Virus record (IMG/VR): IMGVR_UViG_3300019884_000009
Location: 1 to 33,971 of that record
Source of the DNA: a virus
Strand: one strand, 5' to 3'
Length of the DNA stretch: 33,971 nucleotides
Part shown: in pieces, positions 1-30,746 of the stretch
Layout of the letters: every line of letters begins with the position of its first letter
Numbering within the stretch: the first letter of the stretch is position 1
The notes under the pieces: generated by a model
What the model saw: the letters and a program-made list of their open reading frames with translations, nothing else
Told to the model about the DNA's origin: nothing
Databases searched by the model: none
Program-made: the position numbers and the translations under genes

Positions 1-137
1 CCGCGTTCAATGCCGATAGCCGCCAAGCTGTCATTCCGCGCTTTTTGAACCAAGAGGACAAAAGTCATTGGCTTTAGGCTTTGTCTAGGATGTGTCATGT
101 AACCCCCCCCCTTATCATTTTAAGAATGGAATTACAT
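1..137. repeat. Left copy of terminal direct repeat
   Basis: This stretch recurs at 33835-33971. Bases 9-134 are identical to the right copy, and only bases 8 (C here, G there) and 135 (C here, A there) differ. Each mismatch lies within 8 bases of a window end, as expected of error-prone contig tips, so the repeat most likely reflects a circular or circularly permuted genome. It contains a run of nine C at 103-111. No convincing gene lies wholly inside it. Confidence 0.9.
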
Positions 138-7588: not shown

Positions 7589-7843
7589 ATGTTGTTTAGT
7601 GAAGCGCTAGAACAGTTACAGCATGGCGAAACAATGTGTCGTGAATCATGGACACTTGAAGATGGGTATTTAAAGCTCATGCCAGGTATGAAGTTTGTAT
7701 GGAAGATTGTATTGCTTCCTAATCCTAACGCAGGTAATTACATATTTTGTGTTGAGGACTTTTTAGGATGTGATTGGAAGAAGTTTGAGGCACCAAAAGA
7801 GCCTGTTGCAGTAGAAGTAGAAGAAGCCGCAGAAGCGGCCTAA
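7589..7843 (+). CDS. DUF2829 / Tad2-like protein (candidate anti-Thoeris)
   Basis: The 84-aa protein follows the DUF2829 pattern: an N-terminal FSEALEQLQHGE helix, R..W (CRESW), a central beta segment and a closing DFLGCDW. Known Tad2 proteins of this family bind the cyclic ADP-ribose signal of Thoeris defence and so block it. Here the domain ends near residue 67 and an acidic Ala/Glu tail follows. The gene sits oddly between terminase and portal. Assignment is by eye; DUF2829 members may have other roles. AAGGAG precedes the start. Confidence 0.6.
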   Translation: MLFSEALEQLQHGETMCRESWTLEDGYLKLMPGMKFVWKIVLLPNPNAGNYIFCVEDFLGCDWKKFEAPKEPVAVEVEEAAEAA

Positions 7844-7922: not shown

Positions 7923-10130
7923 ATGGAAATCATTGCCGAGCAAATGTCAGTTGAAGACATTGATAGCATAAACGAGGAACTGCAAGGAAAGCTTGAGGAT
8001 GCCGGGATAGATGAGGCTGAGGTTCTTAAAAAAGCTCGAGAAGACATGGTTCTCTGGGATGGATATTTCGGAGAAAACATGGTTAGAGGCAAGGACGATA
8101 TGAACTTCGTATTGCGTGACCAATGGTCAGCCGTTGAGCGTTCAGAGTTTACCCGCCTGTTCAAGCCCGCAATGACTTTTAACAAACTTTATGACACTAC
8201 TAAGAAGGTAATTGGGGAACAGCGTAAGAACAAGCCCGATCTGATAGTACGCTCATTAACTGGAAAATCAAATCAAAAACAAATCGATTTGCGGGCAGAC
8301 CTAGTTAGAACAATTTCTTACCAGTCACAAAATGACCTTGTATATCAAACAGGATTTAGGCAGGCCCTTATGATGGGGTTTGGTGCCTTTGAGATATGCC
8401 TAGAATATGAGAATGCCAAATCATTTAACCAAGTTATTCGTTATGACTTAATACCGGATGTCACAAGAACCTCATTTGATCCCACATCCATGAAGCCACA
8501 TAAAGGAGATGGCAATTTTTGTGCCAGACAATTTGTTTATACCAAAGAAGAATTCTATGCAACCTATCCTTGGATAATGAGTCCAGTGTCGTATTCAGAT
8601 CCACGATCACTTCTAGATTTCCAGTGGGAAACACGAGATACAATAGTAGTTTGCAAATACAATAGAAAAGAATGGTATCCATTAAAGATTCTACTTCTAA
8701 CCGATGGCTCAACGGTAACAGAAGATGAGTGGAAAGAGATGCAAAAGAGCATCGATATGCGTAAAAAGTTAGCTGATAGCTCAGAAGTAGTTGGGGATAT
8801 GATAAGGCAATCCATACCTGTAATTCATGGTGAGCGCATGAGTAAAGATTATAAGATTCGTCAATACATGCTTACACAGAATCAAATAATAGAGTATACG
8901 GACTGGCCTTCAAAATATTTACCACTAATATTCATTGATGGAGATTCAAACTTCATTAATGGGCAGCAATATACGCGATCATTCATCCATGAAGCCAAAG
9001 ATGCTCAGAAGTTTGTAAACTATGTAGGCTCTGAAGTAGCAGCTGAGATTAAGAATCGTCGACGTGAGCAATGGATAGGTACACCTGATAACATACTTGG
9101 TAATGAGCAAATGTGGCGAAATCCTGAGCTACAAGCCGGGATATTAATAGCAAAACCGGATCCGAAAACAGGTTCTATGCCCGCGAAAATGCCTCCATGG
9201 GAACTATCACAATCTTTGTTACAGCAATATCAACGAGGCTGTCAGGACATGAGGGAGATACTTGGATTCTCAGAAAACGAAGCTCTCCAGGGCCGAGATA
9301 TGTCAGGTAAAGCCAGGCGTGAGCGCAAACTTGAAGGTTCTATGTCAGCTTACGTTTACTTTGATAATTTAAATCAAGCAATAGAGCAGGGCGGCCGCGT
9401 AGTTCTAGATTTATTGCCTGTTATTGTTGGAGAGCAAGAACGTCATATGGTTGTATCAAAAGCAGATGGGCGCACAGACTCTGTTACTATGAATAAGGTT
9501 ACTGGTCAAAGCGAAGATGGGCAGGATATTATGGAGAATGCTCTTGACTCTGGTGACTATGATGTTGAGATTGATACAGGACCTAGCTTCGCTGTACAAA
9601 AAGATGTGGCATTAGAGTTTTTTGCTCAGACTATCGCTCAAAATCCTCAGGTTTTCCCTTTGATTGCTGATTTATGGGCTAGTCAATTAGACCTACAACA
9701 GATGCCAATGATTAAGGAAAGGCTATCTAATCTAGTGCCACCTGAGATTCTAGCTAAAGAACAAGGTAAATCTATACCGCCAAAACCACCAAACCCACAA
9801 GAGCAAATGATGGCTGCAGAGATGCAACAAAAACAACAAATGATGGCAATGAATGAACAAAAAATGAAGATTGAAGAGCAAGCTATCATGGAAAGAGCGG
9901 AAGAACTTAAAATAAGGAAAGAAAAACATCTATTAGATCAGGCAGAAATGATATTAAAAGCGCAAGAAATGCAAGAGAAAATGGGACTAGAGAAACAAAA
10001 AATAAAAGTAGAGCATGGTAAGCTTCTGTTGGATGCTGATAGAGCAGAAAAAGATTTTGCATCTAAACTATCTTCGGTGCTTAGTGATCTACATCGCCAT
10101 AATAATCCTCATGTGAAGACAGATAATTAA
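7923..10130 (+). CDS. Portal protein (P22 gp1-like)
   Basis: The 735-aa protein matches the P22-type portal in size (725 aa) and place. Twelve copies would form the ring through which DNA enters and leaves the capsid. The N-terminal half contains the FGENMVRGKDDMNF..DQW and FNKLYDTTKKVIGEQRKNKPD segments typical of the family. The C-terminal 110 residues are Met/Gln/Lys-rich and strongly helical, consistent with the portal barrel. Its last 50 bp overlap an opposing endonuclease gene. Confidence 0.9.
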   Translation: MEIIAEQMSVEDIDSINEELQGKLEDAGIDEAEVLKKAREDMVLWDGYFGENMVRGKDDMNFVLRDQWSAVERSEFTRLFKPAMTFNKLYDTTKKVIGEQRKNKPDLIVRSLTGKSNQKQIDLRADLVRTISYQSQNDLVYQTGFRQALMMGFGAFEICLEYENAKSFNQVIRYDLIPDVTRTSFDPTSMKPHKGDGNFCARQFVYTKEEFYATYPWIMSPVSYSDPRSLLDFQWETRDTIVVCKYNRKEWYPLKILLLTDGSTVTEDEWKEMQKSIDMRKKLADSSEVVGDMIRQSIPVIHGERMSKDYKIRQYMLTQNQIIEYTDWPSKYLPLIFIDGDSNFINGQQYTRSFIHEAKDAQKFVNYVGSEVAAEIKNRRREQWIGTPDNILGNEQMWRNPELQAGILIAKPDPKTGSMPAKMPPWELSQSLLQQYQRGCQDMREILGFSENEALQGRDMSGKARRERKLEGSMSAYVYFDNLNQAIEQGGRVVLDLLPVIVGEQERHMVVSKADGRTDSVTMNKVTGQSEDGQDIMENALDSGDYDVEIDTGPSFAVQKDVALEFFAQTIAQNPQVFPLIADLWASQLDLQQMPMIKERLSNLVPPEILAKEQGKSIPPKPPNPQEQMMAAEMQQKQQMMAMNEQKMKIEEQAIMERAEELKIRKEKHLLDQAEMILKAQEMQEKMGLEKQKIKVEHGKLLLDADRAEKDFASKLSSVLSDLHRHNNPHVKTDN

Positions 10131-24887: not shown

Positions 24888-25523
24888 ATGGGCGTTAAAA
24901 TAAGCAACTTACCAATTGTAGTCACACCGGCATTAACAGATGTCTTCCCTATTGTACAATCTGGAGTGACATATAAAGAAAGTGGCACTCAGTTAAGCAC
25001 TTTATTTGCTACCTCTGGTGCCAATTCTAATATCACATCAATGACCGGATTATCAAGCTTAACGTTTAGCCCAACAACAGGTGGAATCGTTGGAACAACA
25101 ACAAATGATAATGTTGATGCGGGTAAAGTTGGGGAGTTTATATCAAGTGTTATATTGGTTGCATCAGCCCTTGCAATGACAACAAATACCGCTCTTAATA
25201 TCACATCAATCTCACTCACAGCAGGTGACTGGGACGCATGGGGAACATTATGGCTTGTACCAGCTGCAGGAACAATCACAACAACAATATCAGTGGGTGT
25301 ATCTCAAACTTCGGCAACAATGCCAACAACTCCCGCCATAGGTACTTCGCACCAGCAAATAAGAGGATTGGCTACAGCAGCAACTGAAGTATGTATTTTG
25401 CAAGCGCCAACTACCAGAATCACTTTGGCAAGCACGACTACAATCTACCTTGTTGGGCTTTCAACCTTTACTACATCGACAATGGCGGGTTATGGCTCTT
25501 TATGCGCAAGAAGAGTTAGATAG
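24888..25523 (+). CDS. Short paralogue of the tail fibre
   Basis: The 211-aa protein keeps the N-terminal attachment-like segment (VKISNLPIVVTPALTDVFPI..TYKES) and the C-terminal domain (about 58-211, TFSPTTGGIVGTTTNDN through LCARRVR) of the 599-aa fibre. It lacks the roughly 390-residue repetitive shaft between them. DNA similarity is visible, for example 24209-24260 against 25068-25120. It could be a second, short-shaft receptor-binding protein or a cassette for recombination. AAAAGGAATTAAATT precedes its ATG. Confidence 0.75.
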   Translation: MGVKISNLPIVVTPALTDVFPIVQSGVTYKESGTQLSTLFATSGANSNITSMTGLSSLTFSPTTGGIVGTTTNDNVDAGKVGEFISSVILVASALAMTTNTALNITSISLTAGDWDAWGTLWLVPAAGTITTTISVGVSQTSATMPTTPAIGTSHQQIRGLATAATEVCILQAPTTRITLASTTTIYLVGLSTFTTSTMAGYGSLCARRVR

Positions 25524-25751
25524 AAAATCGGCAATGAATTCATATCCTCGGCTTTTTCTCCGCTTCATCATGGAGCTTATGCATTTTTGCAACTCTTCTT
25601 CTGTCTGAACTAACATGTTTTTTCTGCCGCCTCTATTTGAATTAAGGCCACCCCAGGAGTGACTCAAAACTATTTCATTTTGGGATTGTTTTTGTATTGT
25701 TATAGTATAATAACGTGATTTTTCTTTATTTAGCCATTGGTAAATAGACAT
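25500..25751 (-). CDS. WGR-domain protein
   Basis: The 83-aa protein consists almost wholly of a WGR-like domain: YYTITIQKQSQNEIV, then SHSWGGLNSNRGG (WGG at 33-35 in place of WGR), then a helix ending KRRKSRGYEF. WGR domains bind nucleic acid ends in PARPs and occur as single-domain proteins in bacteria and phages, with unknown roles there. GGAG lies 4-5 nt before its ATG. It ends 24 bp inside the 3' end of the opposing fibre gene. Confidence 0.7.
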   Translation of the reverse strand: MSIYQWLNKEKSRYYTITIQKQSQNEIVLSHSWGGLNSNRGGRKNMLVQTEEELQKCISSMMKRRKSRGYEFIADFLSNSSCA

Positions 25752-25918: not shown

Positions 25919-26536
25919 TCAACTGTTATTCTTAAGGTAATCGGATGGCATATTAAAGTGGGTAGCCTTGGTTATCTGTTCTTGATCTAAGATTTTATAA
26001 ACACTAGCTCTAGATAAATTTAGAATCTGTGCTGCCTTTCTAATACTAATTCCCTCAGTAGTTATCATTTTAACTGCATCACTTCTCATTGCTTTTGTTA
26101 TTTTTGAAGGTCGACCCAAATGTCTACCGGCTAACCTTGCAGCTACAATACCGTCTTTTTGCCTTGATTTAATCATCGTGCGTTCAAATTCTGCAAATGC
26201 TCCCATCATGTGAAGCATAAGATTTGACAAAGGGTCTTTCTCAGCAGTAAAAGTTAAATTCTCTTTAACAAATTTAACTGAGACTCCTTTTTCGATAAGA
26301 GAATCTATTATCTCCTGGAGGTCTCGTAAATTTCTCGCCAACCTATCAATACTTTCAACAACCAAAGTGTCACCGTCTCGTATGTATTCCATACAAGCAA
26401 TCAGGTTTTCACGGTTCTTTACGCTCCCGCTCATGATATCGACAAACTCCTTGTCTAATTTCACCCCCGCTAACTGCCTTGCGGTATTTTGTCCTTGTGA
26501 TGATACTCGTATGTAACCTACAACTTGATGCTTCAT
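25919..26536 (-). CDS. Serine recombinase (resolvase/invertase family)
   Basis: The 205-aa protein (start at the ATG giving MKHQVVGYIRVSS; the frame is open upstream but carries unrelated residues) has the N-terminal catalytic domain of small serine recombinases: R10 and S12 in YIRVSS, DRLAR (64-68) and the long E-helix (104-135). A C-terminal helix-turn-helix covers about 160-184. Relatives resolve plasmid dimers or invert tail-fibre segments (Gin/Hin). It lies beside the fibre paralogues. It starts 2 bp after the coiled-coil/TM gene, in one operon. Confidence 0.9.
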   Translation of the reverse strand: MKHQVVGYIRVSSQGQNTARQLAGVKLDKEFVDIMSGSVKNRENLIACMEYIRDGDTLVVESIDRLARNLRDLQEIIDSLIEKGVSVKFVKENLTFTAEKDPLSNLMLHMMGAFAEFERTMIKSRQKDGIVAARLAGRHLGRPSKITKAMRSDAVKMITTEGISIRKAAQILNLSRASVYKILDQEQITKATHFNMPSDYLKNNS

Positions 26537-26538
26537 AT

Positions 26539-26811
26539 TTAAAACCAATGAAATCCGTGAGCCATGAACCCAAATAATCCGACAAACCCACCTATCGTAA
26601 AAGTTAATAGCCATCTAAATTCCGATCTCATTTCTTTTCGGCTTTCTTTAATGTCTGATTTAATTTCAACAATACTTGATTTGATGTCTGATTTAATTTC
26701 GATAAGCGTCCTATCTATATTCATCATTGATTGTTCAAGCAACGCCGTTCTAGTTTCTATACTATATGGATATTGACTAACTTTATCTTCTGGTTTTTTA
26801 TTCACTTTCAT
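26539..26811 (-). CDS. Coiled-coil protein with C-terminal TM (paralogue A)
   Basis: The 90-aa protein has an ETRTALLEQS segment, a repeated heptad-like EIKSDIK stretch (about 37-60) and one C-terminal hydrophobic helix (FTIGGFVGLFGFMA) ending HGFHWF. It closely resembles the 32119-32394 protein. Tail-anchored coiled coils of the XhlA type are common in phages. It is directly upstream of the serine recombinase and shares its promoter; why they are paired is unknown. Confidence 0.7.
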   Translation of the reverse strand: MKVNKKPEDKVSQYPYSIETRTALLEQSMMNIDRTLIEIKSDIKSSIVEIKSDIKESRKEMRSEFRWLLTFTIGGFVGLFGFMAHGFHWF

Positions 26812-27615: not shown

Positions 27616-27736
27616 TTTTTATTTCCAATTTATTTATTCGGTCATTTAGTTTGCAAATATAACGGAGTTGAAATAAATGAGAAATTGACAATAATATGAT
27701 GGAGCTCTCACACAGCATGTTTGCAATATTCGTCAT
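27593..27736 (-). CDS. 47-aa microprotein coupled to the Tad2-like gene
   Basis: The ORF starts in an ATGA overlap with the tandem Tad2-like gene and ends 23 bp inside the next gene. The product has a short hydrophobic part (SSIILLSISHLF) and a coiled-coil-like end (KLNDRINKLEIKN). The coupling supports translation; no function is known. Confidence 0.5.
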   Translation of the reverse strand: MTNIANMLCESSIILLSISHLFQLRYICKLNDRINKLEIKNDGFKSW

Positions 27737-28110
27737 TCTACCGTTATCCAGTCATCAGCCAAAAAAGAATCAAAATCAGGTATATATGGGAAGCAGTCCA
27801 TTGTGTGGATAACAAGACCTCTTATTGAGGCATCAAAATAAATAAATGACTCTTTCCAGTCCTTCATCTTCGCTTTAGATCCTTTGCAAATAAATGAGAT
27901 GATATCACAGAATTTCATTTCTTCGTTGCCATTATCAACTAACCACCCATCAGATATCATTATATCTTCATTATAATTATAAGTTGATAATTTTGGCTGA
28001 TAGGATTTTACATCCTTTCCTTGCATTAAAAAGTATACGCCATCTTCCCATGGCTTTCTGGTAACTTTTGAGCCACTTTTAAGCTTATCCATTGCTTCGC
28101 AGAATTTCAT
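27733..28110 (-). CDS. Tandem Tad2-like (double DUF2829) protein
   Basis: The 125-aa protein has two halves with the same opening (MKFCEAMDKLKSGSK at residue 1 and MKFCDIISFICKGSK at about 65). Each continues to a W (RKPW, MKDW) and a YF segment, and the second half closes with FLADDWITV, the DUF2829 ending. Tad2 proteins of this family soak up the cyclic nucleotide signal of Thoeris defence as multimers; a fused pair could assemble or bind differently. Assignment is by eye. AAAGGATGG precedes the ATG, inside the upstream gene. Confidence 0.6.
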   Translation of the reverse strand: MKFCEAMDKLKSGSKVTRKPWEDGVYFLMQGKDVKSYQPKLSTYNYNEDIMISDGWLVDNGNEEMKFCDIISFICKGSKAKMKDWKESFIYFDASIRGLVIHTMDCFPYIPDFDSFLADDWITVE

Positions 28111-28470: not shown

Positions 28471-28617
28471 TTAAGATGCATAAGCACCACGGTCTCGCAC
28501 AATTGCAAAATGAGGCGCTCTTCGATCACGTGCGTCTTTTCGAGCTCCAGTCCCATATTTGGTGACAATCGGCTGGAGTTTCACCAGCCAGAAAAAACGG
28601 TAGGGAATCGAACCCAT
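28471..28617 (-). CDS. Possible basic ORF inside the GC-rich island
   Basis: From ATG 28617 the minus strand encodes 48 aa, including YRFFWLVKLQPIVTKY and an Arg/Asp-rich end. The frame is open further upstream to the stop of the preceding gene, so a GTG start near 28660 is possible. Codon use (CGT, CGA, GCG) differs from neighbours. It vaguely recalls small ORFs in the immunity regions of P4-like elements. It competes with the view that the island is a structured RNA. Confidence 0.3.
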   Translation of the reverse strand: MGSIPYRFFWLVKLQPIVTKYGTGARKDARDRRAPHFAIVRDRGAYAS

Positions 28618-28690
28618 CGGACGTTGACCAGCTACACCAGTCGTTTTTTCTCCAGGCCAACGGGCACGTAATGTCTGTGCAGCGATTGTC
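28560..28690 (-). ncRNA. Candidate tRNA-like structured RNA
   Basis: Read on the minus strand, a 7-bp closing stem (28684-28690 with 28564-28570) is followed by ACCA (28563-28560), as in a tRNA acceptor. Directly before its 3' arm is a 6-bp hairpin GGCTGG/CCAGCC with a 7-base loop, in the T-arm place but without a TTCGA loop. A GCAC/GTGC hairpin lies in the D-arm place (28680-28664). The centre is a perfect 10-bp stem (28590-28599/28642-28651) whose 42-base loop holds GGGTTCGATTCCC. No anticodon arm is evident. The fold is inferred by hand. Confidence 0.4.
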
Positions 28691-29432: not shown

Positions 29433-29897
29433 TTAAAAGTTTACATCATCATCAGCAAAAGGATCACTGGCATTATTTTTAACATAATCTTCTATTTTAT
29501 TCTTATTTGGATATTTAGATCCAGGAATTTTACCATTTAATTTATCATCAGGTATAACACCACCTTCTTCCATGGTTATTTTTACCCTAACTCTCTTTCC
29601 AATTACAGCATCCGAACAAAACTTTTGCGATTCATATTCAGGTAGTACTCCGGCTGAATCGGCGCAATGTACCACTTTCCACATCATAGTTTTGGTAAAT
29701 ACGAGAAAGTCTCTTACATCGTGCTCTTTGCCATTTTCATCATAGACAGTTACTGTCATATCCATCATGGGATTACCGCTACTTTGGGATATCTTATCTT
29801 GTGATGCGCTTATTACGGCGTCATAATCACCTTCTTTTAATAATTGGAAGCGCTCGCTCATTGCTTCTTGTTCGGAATAAACTTGGTATGAAAACAT
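29433..29897 (-). CDS. DUF669-type single-strand DNA-binding partner
   Basis: The 154-aa protein fits DUF669, a family encoded next to Sak4-like annealing ATPases. It has an N-terminal SERFQLLKEGDYDAVI strand region, a central TMMWKVVHCADSAGVL segment and a C-terminal acidic tail DPFADDDVNF like the protein-recruiting tip of SSB. It probably coats ssDNA during replication or recombination. It follows the ATPase gene by 3 bp. Confidence 0.75.
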   Translation of the reverse strand: MFSYQVYSEQEAMSERFQLLKEGDYDAVISASQDKISQSSGNPMMDMTVTVYDENGKEHDVRDFLVFTKTMMWKVVHCADSAGVLPEYESQKFCSDAVIGKRVRVKITMEEGGVIPDDKLNGKIPGSKYPNKNKIEDYVKNNASDPFADDDVNF

Positions 29898-29900
29898 CTA

Positions 29901-30746
29901 TTACTCTCCTTGTATTTTATTTTTTAGGTGGTCAATACATTTTTGTATCGCATCTTTTGGCATCTCTTCAAATTTCTCGGAACATGATTTGTCCAGCCAC
30001 TTTTGATATATTTCAACTGGAACCTTGATTAAATCAATTAAGTGCAACAATTCTTTAACTTGGTTATTGGAAGCTAATTCCTGTGCAACGGCATCGCGCT
30101 CAAGCACATCACGTCCATAACGTTTAGCTATTTCGTCATATGAAAAAGGAAATGTTTCCATGTCTTTAAACGATTCTATTCTTGATTTTTTTACAATACC
30201 AACTCTATCTTTCCCGCGCTTGGAAATCTCAAATACCAGATCCATTAAGTAATCGATCTTCTTATAACAATCAAATGTGGATCCTAAAACAGAAAGGTTT
30301 TGACCGTATTCCGTCTTTGCATGGCTAGTTATAAGAACATTCATGTCGAGACGCAATAACAAATTTAGCAAATGTTTAATCTGTTTGTTCGCTTCTGAAT
30401 AATGCCGCCCAAATTCTGTACCATTTTTTAATGCTGACTTATCTAATAAGTCATTATAAAGTGTCGTCAAGGGGTCTATTACAAGAGTTAAATATTCATG
30501 CTTTTCAGTCAACAGGGATTTTACCTCTGTCATTAACTCATCAAAATCTGTCGTTTGAAATATCACTCCGCCATTTTTGGATAATATATTTGTGTACTGA
30601 CTATTTTCTGCCCCTTTTTCAGTATCGATTAGATAGACCTTAGGAAAAGAAATGGCCGCTGTGGTTTTACCTACACCCGCATTACCATAAAACAAAGCCT
30701 TTAATCTTTTTTCTATCTTTTCTGGTTTAACGCCACGTAATGCCAT
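29901..30746 (-). CDS. Sak4-like recombination ATPase
   Basis: The 281-aa protein has Walker A GNAGVGKTT (21-29), LIDTEKG (39-45), Walker B LVIDPLTTL with D91, and a sensor-like ITSHAKTE (139-146): the RecA-core layout of phage Sak4 proteins (AAA_24 family). These ATP-dependent proteins load on ssDNA and promote annealing. The DUF669 gene beside it is the usual partner. TAGGAG precedes the start. Confidence 0.8.
   Translation of the reverse strand: MALRGVKPEKIEKRLKALFYGNAGVGKTTAAISFPKVYLIDTEKGAENSQYTNILSKNGGVIFQTTDFDELMTEVKSLLTEKHEYLTLVIDPLTTLYNDLLDKSALKNGTEFGRHYSEANKQIKHLLNLLLRLDMNVLITSHAKTEYGQNLSVLGSTFDCYKKIDYLMDLVFEISKRGKDRVGIVKKSRIESFKDMETFPFSYDEIAKRYGRDVLERDAVAQELASNNQVKELLHLIDLIKVPVEIYQKWLDKSCSEKFEEMPKDAIQKCIDHLKNKIQGE

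Follow-up and report, generated by a model that had tools for sequence, protein, structure and literature searches.

The window, by which we mean the whole stretch of DNA analysed here, is a virus record 33,971 bases long. It encodes a P22-like portal (332 bits) and a P22-like coat protein, and the terminase most similar to its own is found in Pelagibacter phage Hodr (40.6%). The gene considered here belongs to P22-like podoviruses; it encodes a tandem Tad2-like protein and lies downstream of a Sak4-like ATPase gene and an SSB-like DUF669 gene in one leftward gene run (Table 1). The plus strand of positions 27733-28110 contains many stops. Elsewhere in the window, positions 25919-26614 (minus strand) encode a serine resolvase/invertase with an HTH_7 domain (Resolvase, 120.9 bits) near repeat-rich tail-like genes, possibly a tail-gene switch; relatives of it lie near the tandem in 8 of 22 records. 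An 83-aa protein at 25500-25751 (minus strand) consists essentially of a single WGR domain (23.4 bits against a cut-off of 22), and WGR-domain-like ORFs occur near the tandem in 6 of the 22 records. A tRNA-like GAATCGAACCC motif noticed by eye at 28590-28660 was rejected, as ARAGORN and Rfam were both negative.

Table 1. Features of the window that bear on the tandem gene, including the proposed pieces of the outer globule.
Feature	Position	Strand	Description	Basis
Tandem Tad2-like protein	27733..28110	-	125 aa + stop	ORF and PF11195 match in two stretches
Half 1, residues 1-60	27931..28110	-	a1, b1, b2, long b3, short helix, last strand; canonical R18	
Half 2, residues 64-125	27736..27921	-	Element order as in half 1; canonical P111, A118 and D120-W121; canonical Arg replaced (mostly M/L)	
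Outer (canonical) globule, first piece, residues ~1-43 (proposed)	27982..28110	-		Tad2 alignment range and Pfam splice score
Outer globule, second piece, residues ~109-125 (proposed)	27736..27786	-	Contains the closing DW	Same basis; D120, W121 in 49/49
DUF669 / single-strand DNA-binding-like protein	29433..29897	-		PF05037, 28.0 bits; phrog_378
Sak4-like AAA_24 ATPase	29901..30746	-		PF13479, 79.5 bits; phrog_124 (Sak4-like)
Single-domain Tad2-like gene	7589..7843	+	84 aa, acidic tail, before portal gene	PF11195, 28.6 bits

Two Tad2-like units and their relatives

The Pfam family PF11195 (Tad2-like, formerly DUF2829) matches the whole 125-aa protein in two stretches with 42.6 bits, above the gathering cut-off of 25 bits. 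Taken alone, half 1 stays above that cut-off (28.0-28.1 bits) and half 2 falls below it (19.8-19.9 bits), while in the relative L008 both halves pass separately (25.8 and 28.2 bits). Since SPO1 Tad2 reaches 85.8 bits in a single stretch, both halves must be divergent members of the family. They are 26% identical to each other over 58 aa, with a Smith-Waterman score of 66 that none of 5000 shuffles attained (mean 22.1, maximum 46, z 10.6). The first-pass annotation, made from the sequence alone, had described two DUF2829-like units fused in 125 aa and had proposed a profile search as a check; the two-stretch Pfam match and the half-to-half score bear the description out. PF11195 was matched by all 23 scanned tandem members (E <= 1; best 7e-15). 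Among 37 members, phrog_1048 and phrog_872 were matched by all 37 and phrog_6670 by 36, all three being families of unknown function, and phrog_872 covers residues 1-124 of the tandem as one stretch. An NCBIfam search gave nothing relevant.

Four scans of IMG/VR gave 44 distinct contigs (43 in the last scan; L017 in earlier scans only), each with a full-length tandem in an open frame of 124-128 aa. Ten more were found by anchoring a scan on Sak4 and by querying with P0002 (L265), a divergent member whose identity to the 12 other tandems of a mixed alignment is 23-41%. Full-length tandems are thus known from 54 other IMG/VR contigs, at identities down to about 25%. Residue counts at canonical positions were taken from a set of 39 proteins, the column table was built from 13 of these, and a wider alignment holds 49 rows. 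L017, a full-length tandem with a GTG start whose half 1 closing segment reads DSW, forms part of alignments A2-A4 and is missing from both sets because the last scan had not returned it, and L258 and L291, cut by contig ends, were left out of the 49 rows. Twenty-two positions hold one residue in at least 38 of the 39 proteins, and R18, W56, D120 and W121 are kept in 49/49 aligned tandems; position 55 is G in 45 of these and D in the other four. Both halves open with MKFC, as the first-pass annotation had remarked. This is true of the protein in the window and does not extend to the family, in which residue 65 is M in only 6 of the 39 distinct proteins, so that an inner start codon is not conserved. 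Judging from these sequences, the repeated MKFC is partly luck, and a separate second product is not indicated.

A phage collection searched with P0001 and L016 held no tandem relative (best single-unit match, E 5e-3), and ten varied PF11195 proteins of known phages showed one stretch each. An apparent tandem match of 36% in Listeria phage LM 4-11-1 proved to be a 73-aa single Tad2-like gene next to an unrelated gene. Among 299 Bacillota genomes, all of one phylum, PF11195 was found in five and never twice in one frame. The family profile had no match in 398 genomes, in a search run without a positive control, and tandem patterns run against genome contigs in one search mode gave nothing that was confirmed. 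In a domain tree, the halves and the late single-domain genes fall into distinct groups with long branches. No account of a tandem or swapped Tad2 came up in the literature search; the main Tad2 structure papers, which might contain one, lay outside it.

Predicted fold and complementary conservation of the halves

An AlphaFold2 model built with 37 family sequences reached a pLDDT of 93.4 and a pTM of 0.72; an earlier one from eight sequences was poor (pLDDT 54.4) and was discarded. In the model, half 1 consists of H3-11, E15-18, E26-30, E33-43, H48-51 and E54-58, and half 2 of H67-75, E79-82, E89-93, E98-108, H113-117 and E121-124. A VIA-align search with the best model listed ten solved entries of Tad2, at Z 10.3-11.7 and with 61-62 residues aligned at an rmsd of 1.2-1.7 A; the next row stood at Z 5.8. 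Foldseek against the PDB gave no match at E 0.001 or better, with Tad2 ranking first at E 0.020. Matches of the model in BFVD were set aside for function. The structure prediction that the first-pass annotation had proposed therefore returns Tad2's own fold and not the different fold that it had named as grounds for giving up the idea, and we regard it as virtually certain that the chain holds two Tad2-like units with a Tad2 fold.

The row at Z 5.8 was PDB 8qkh_S, a neck chain of phage 812 that aligns with the tandem model over 66 residues at 23% identity. Perhaps the neck of this virion contains a Tad2-like fold, Z being below the trusted level; 8qkh_S was not among the matches listed for a profile of the late gene against PDB sequences.

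The solved Tad2s span the range 1..125 of the model (once 1..124). Because only 61-62 aligned residues reach both chain ends, the N-terminal part of half 1 and the C-terminal part of half 2 share one globule in the model. The last helix and strand are thus probably swapped between the two halves, if the model is right, and the far C-terminus probably supplies the DW that half 1 had seemed to lack. The swap was read from alignment ranges and not from coordinates, and the exchange point is approximate. The reported identity to SPO1 Tad2, 26% over 62 residues, corresponds to 16 identities; joining the half 1 start to the half 2 end gives 10 + 6, and joining it to the half 1 end gives 10 + 1, a tally to which the middle strands might add a few. 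The predicted model supports the Tad2 fold, and the swap less surely.

Conservation in the two halves is complementary. The beta1 Arg is present in 16/16 known Tad2-like proteins and in 39/39 first halves, and in only 4/39 second halves, where the position reads M in 20, L in 13, R in 4 and W in 2. Conversely, the closing Asp is found in 16/16 known proteins and 39/39 second halves and in 0/39 first halves, all 39 of which have G; of the 49 first halves in the larger alignment, four close with D. The canonical P111 and A118 of half 2 are kept in 36/39 and 37/39, and their counterparts in half 1 are Y/F46 and S53. The full canonical residue set is therefore found only in the outer composite of half 1 start and half 2 end. 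Two remarks of the first-pass annotation have to be amended in this light. Half 1, which it saw as lacking a clear closing DW, indeed has no segment of the D120-W121 type, and yet carries D54-G55-W56 at the homologous place. Where it suggested that one half might be degenerate, the loss is rather a complementary one, with half 1 keeping R18 and half 2 keeping P111, A118 and D120-W121.

Splicing the sequences gave the same picture. Half 1 start joined to residues 109-125 scores 34.0 bits against PF11195, more than either half (28.1 and 19.8); the inner splice was not listed. For L008 the outer splice scores 32.8 bits, the halves 25.8 and 28.2, and the inner splice 17.7. With a profile from 19 late single-domain genes, the outer splice exceeded both halves in 39/39 proteins. 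The summed scores are nearly equal (mean 23.8 bits for the two halves and 24.4 for outer plus inner splice), and because profile scores are nearly additive over segments, this test speaks for complementary conservation and not for a swap as such.

Candidate function and rival explanations

Starting from the observed tandem, its conservation, its patchy distribution and the complementary conservation of its halves, we suggest that the outer globule (residues ~1-43 and 109-125) would be a complete canonical Tad2 fold and that the stretch ~44-108 would form another copy of it, permuted and diverged. The chain as a whole would then be a covalent pseudo-dimer with unequal sites. The gene would be expressed early, alongside the Sak4 and SSB genes, and its product, like the Tad2 sponges, would bind a small ligand of nucleotide type, thereby blunting a host immune signal, probably with the ligand held otherwise than in the standard gcADPR way. 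The fold, the patchiness and the early-type neighbours make an early counter-defence role, sequestering a nucleotide-type signal, the most likely one, and by analogy with Tad2 the protein could plausibly act as a sponge for an immune signal of some kind. The mechanism as a whole, a compact, swapped, early tandem that sponges a nucleotide ligand, we put forward tentatively, giving it slightly less than an even chance.

A substantial possibility, though one we would not call likely, is that the protein has no part in counter-defence and is a replication or recombination accessory, or binds some other small molecule or a protein and shares only the fold. The gene neighbourhood accords with this, as 21 of 22 records have Sak4-like genes close to the tandem and 21 of 22 have SSB-like genes there, and so does the absence of the loop motifs of the solved Tad2s (discussed below). 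It is also consistent with the presence of PF11195 genes in other settings, on the chromosomes of Enterococcus and other Bacillota and beside the portal gene in the window itself. All 23 records searched carry the tandem and 19 also have the single-domain gene, which was present in 17/17 records over 33 kb, the four records lacking it being 13-30 kb long. In all 18 other records examined it directly precedes a portal-size ORF (731-760 aa where complete), as it precedes the P22-like portal in the window. Since this single-domain relative lies in the virion gene block, the Tad2-like fold can evidently serve elsewhere.

Against a role tied to the replication genes stands the distribution of the tandem. 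A Sak4-anchored search of IMG/VR, in which the best 80 of 191 loci were examined over the fetched stretches only, used a query from tandem-bearing records, and its counts are not population frequencies. A match lay nearby at 34 of these 80 loci (31 full tandems, two cut by a contig end and one single-domain gene), 25 had no match despite at least 3 kb of downstream sequence, and 21 were too short. Because those 25 loci keep Sak4 without a copy, the tandem is dispensable for the Sak4 module, and it is patchy beside conserved neighbours, which is the pattern of an accessory gene. Moreover, the spread of identity to about 25% and the patchiness would resemble those of arms-race genes. The one single-domain match, at 8621-8815 (plus strand) of L244, is a stand-alone compact Tad2-like gene of 64 aa downstream of Sak4 at a locus where no tandem was found; it possibly resembles the ancestral single unit.

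Single Tad2-like domains are also encoded on bacterial chromosomes. A 73-aa protein (L129-L208) is chromosomal in many Enterococcus species and relatives, 80 of 308 confirmed places having been kept. The copy in L061, which is without WNGK, lies between regulator-like and short-chain dehydrogenase-like genes, families judged by eye. On one contig of a genome reached via L181 (Virgibacillus), two Tad2-like copies with identical scores lie about 4.4 kb apart (G023:C1:154162-154377 and 158561-158776).

Whether the halves are swapped at all is a separate matter. In a plain side-by-side tandem, each half would close on itself, the swap in the model would be an artefact, and a composite interface site, at which half 1 meets half 2 with its start turned to the other's end, would have been kept while the reciprocal site decayed. 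According to one review, the gcADPR pocket of Tad2 spans protomers, being built from b1-b2, b3-b4 and strand b4 of one and from b1-b2, b4-a3 and helix a3 of another (PMC12043709). With a pocket so shared, complementary loss is possible without any swap. Mutual information between segments, which did not separate swapped from unswapped pairings, does not favour the swap either; D55 and R82, a pair expected together in a swapped inner globule, coincide in 2 of 4 proteins against 5 of 45 (p = 0.09). Swapped pairing of repeats is also a known failure mode of AlphaFold2. On the other side, both chain ends fall into a single Tad2 globule in the model, and confidence is similar across the five AlphaFold2 models (92.0-93.4). 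We consider the side-by-side arrangement unlikely, if a serious contender. Rather improbable, too, is a more specific form of the swapped reading, namely an intramolecularly domain-swapped pseudo-dimer that acts as an immune-signal sponge. In it the chain ends would complete one intact Tad2 site and the middle an altered second one, so that a lone asymmetric pocket would take a signal not bound by ordinary Tad2, in viruses whose virion gene block encodes a third Tad2-like domain.

The protein could instead be a classical Tad2 sponge, merely fused, with gcADPR or His-ADPR as its ligand and inhibiting Thoeris by the established mechanism. The Tad2 sponge is a homotetramer with two gcADPR pockets. 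Tad2 homologues differ in ligand, and MoTad2 binds His-ADPR (PMC13299392). The PF11195 match and the fold shared with SPO1 Tad2, SptTad2, HgmTad2 and ModTad2 agree with a classical sponge, and the ligand features do not. WNGK is found in the b1-b2 loop of all four solved sequences (SPO1, ModTad2, SptTad2 and HgmTad2), and WNG in 12/16 known Tad2-like proteins, against 0/39 first and 0/39 second halves; a segment of the type S-x-[TSE]-D ahead of the closing DW is present in 13/16 known proteins and in 0/39 of either half. An insertion after b2 is given as the CDN site of Tad2 in the review cited above (PMC12043709). By alignment, both halves lack this beta2-beta3 insertion, and in the model b2 ends and b3 starts at 30/33 in half 1 and at 93/98 in half 2. 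Given the absence of WNG, of the S-x-[TSE]-D segment and of the insertion, a standard gcADPR or CDN site is unlikely. The conserved polar set R18, Q38, Y46, E48 and S53, specific to the tandem family and located in half 1, makes a site for some other ligand plausible. Binding of the Thoeris signal, which the first-pass annotation had carried over from Tad2, is thus not borne out, as neither half has the WNGK loop or the insertion. Nor does membership of PF11195 by itself amount to anti-Thoeris activity, because species across Enterococcus carry this domain in a chromosomal gene as well. Altogether a classical sponge appears quite improbable. A decaying or chance ORF, which might be suspected in a short, divergent gene of a gene-dense, AT-rich region whose half 2 alone misses the Pfam cut-off, is refuted by the frame open in 44/44 contigs and by the 22 near-invariant positions.

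Comparison with known Tad2-like proteins

The tandem shares with Tad2 (SPO1 gp34.65, SptTad2, HgmTad2/AcrIIA7, ModTad2) the predicted fold, in which 61-62 residues of the model superpose at 1.2-1.7 A, and the conserved frame F..A...L..G..V.R..W ... DW. Known Tad2 proteins are single domains of about 89-104 aa that carry a WNGK loop and a b2-b3 insertion, whereas the tandem has two compact 60-aa units per chain, lacks loop and insertion, and is probably interlocked in the way the model suggests. The compact single-domain proteins (a DUF2829 protein of Bacteroides phage C3_41T2LP, the late gene of the window, and L244) are short and without a long insertion, like the tandem units; the C3_41T2LP protein reads W-E-D-G-x-Y, as does half 1. 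Unlike the tandem, all three have one domain per chain. A two-part chain with a C-terminal Tad2-like domain is found in N4 gp49-type proteins, the other part of which, in contrast to the tandem, is not Tad2-like by Pfam (Phage_gp49_66 in Pmp13). In phage N4 gp49 itself, the Tad2-like domain follows about 80 unmatched residues, and in Pasteurella phage Pmp13, Phage_gp49_66 is fused to it (L219 1207-1764, L211 1255-1737).

The compact branch, which is without the loop motif of the solved proteins, cautions against calling every PF11195 protein anti-Thoeris, as does the occurrence of the domain beside portal genes and on host chromosomes. Going by the model, the tandem is probably a compact, swapped variant of the Tad2-like fold. 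The sponge proteins in the literature consulted are homo-oligomers of identical protomers. If the tandem is a covalent asymmetric sponge, each chain would offer two different sites, and the effect of fusion on stoichiometry or ligand choice would become testable. For the arrangement itself, Cyanovirin-N offers an analogy, with a likeness in architecture only: it is a lectin of unrelated fold and not a relative, and its arrangement is proven, whereas that of the tandem is known from a model.
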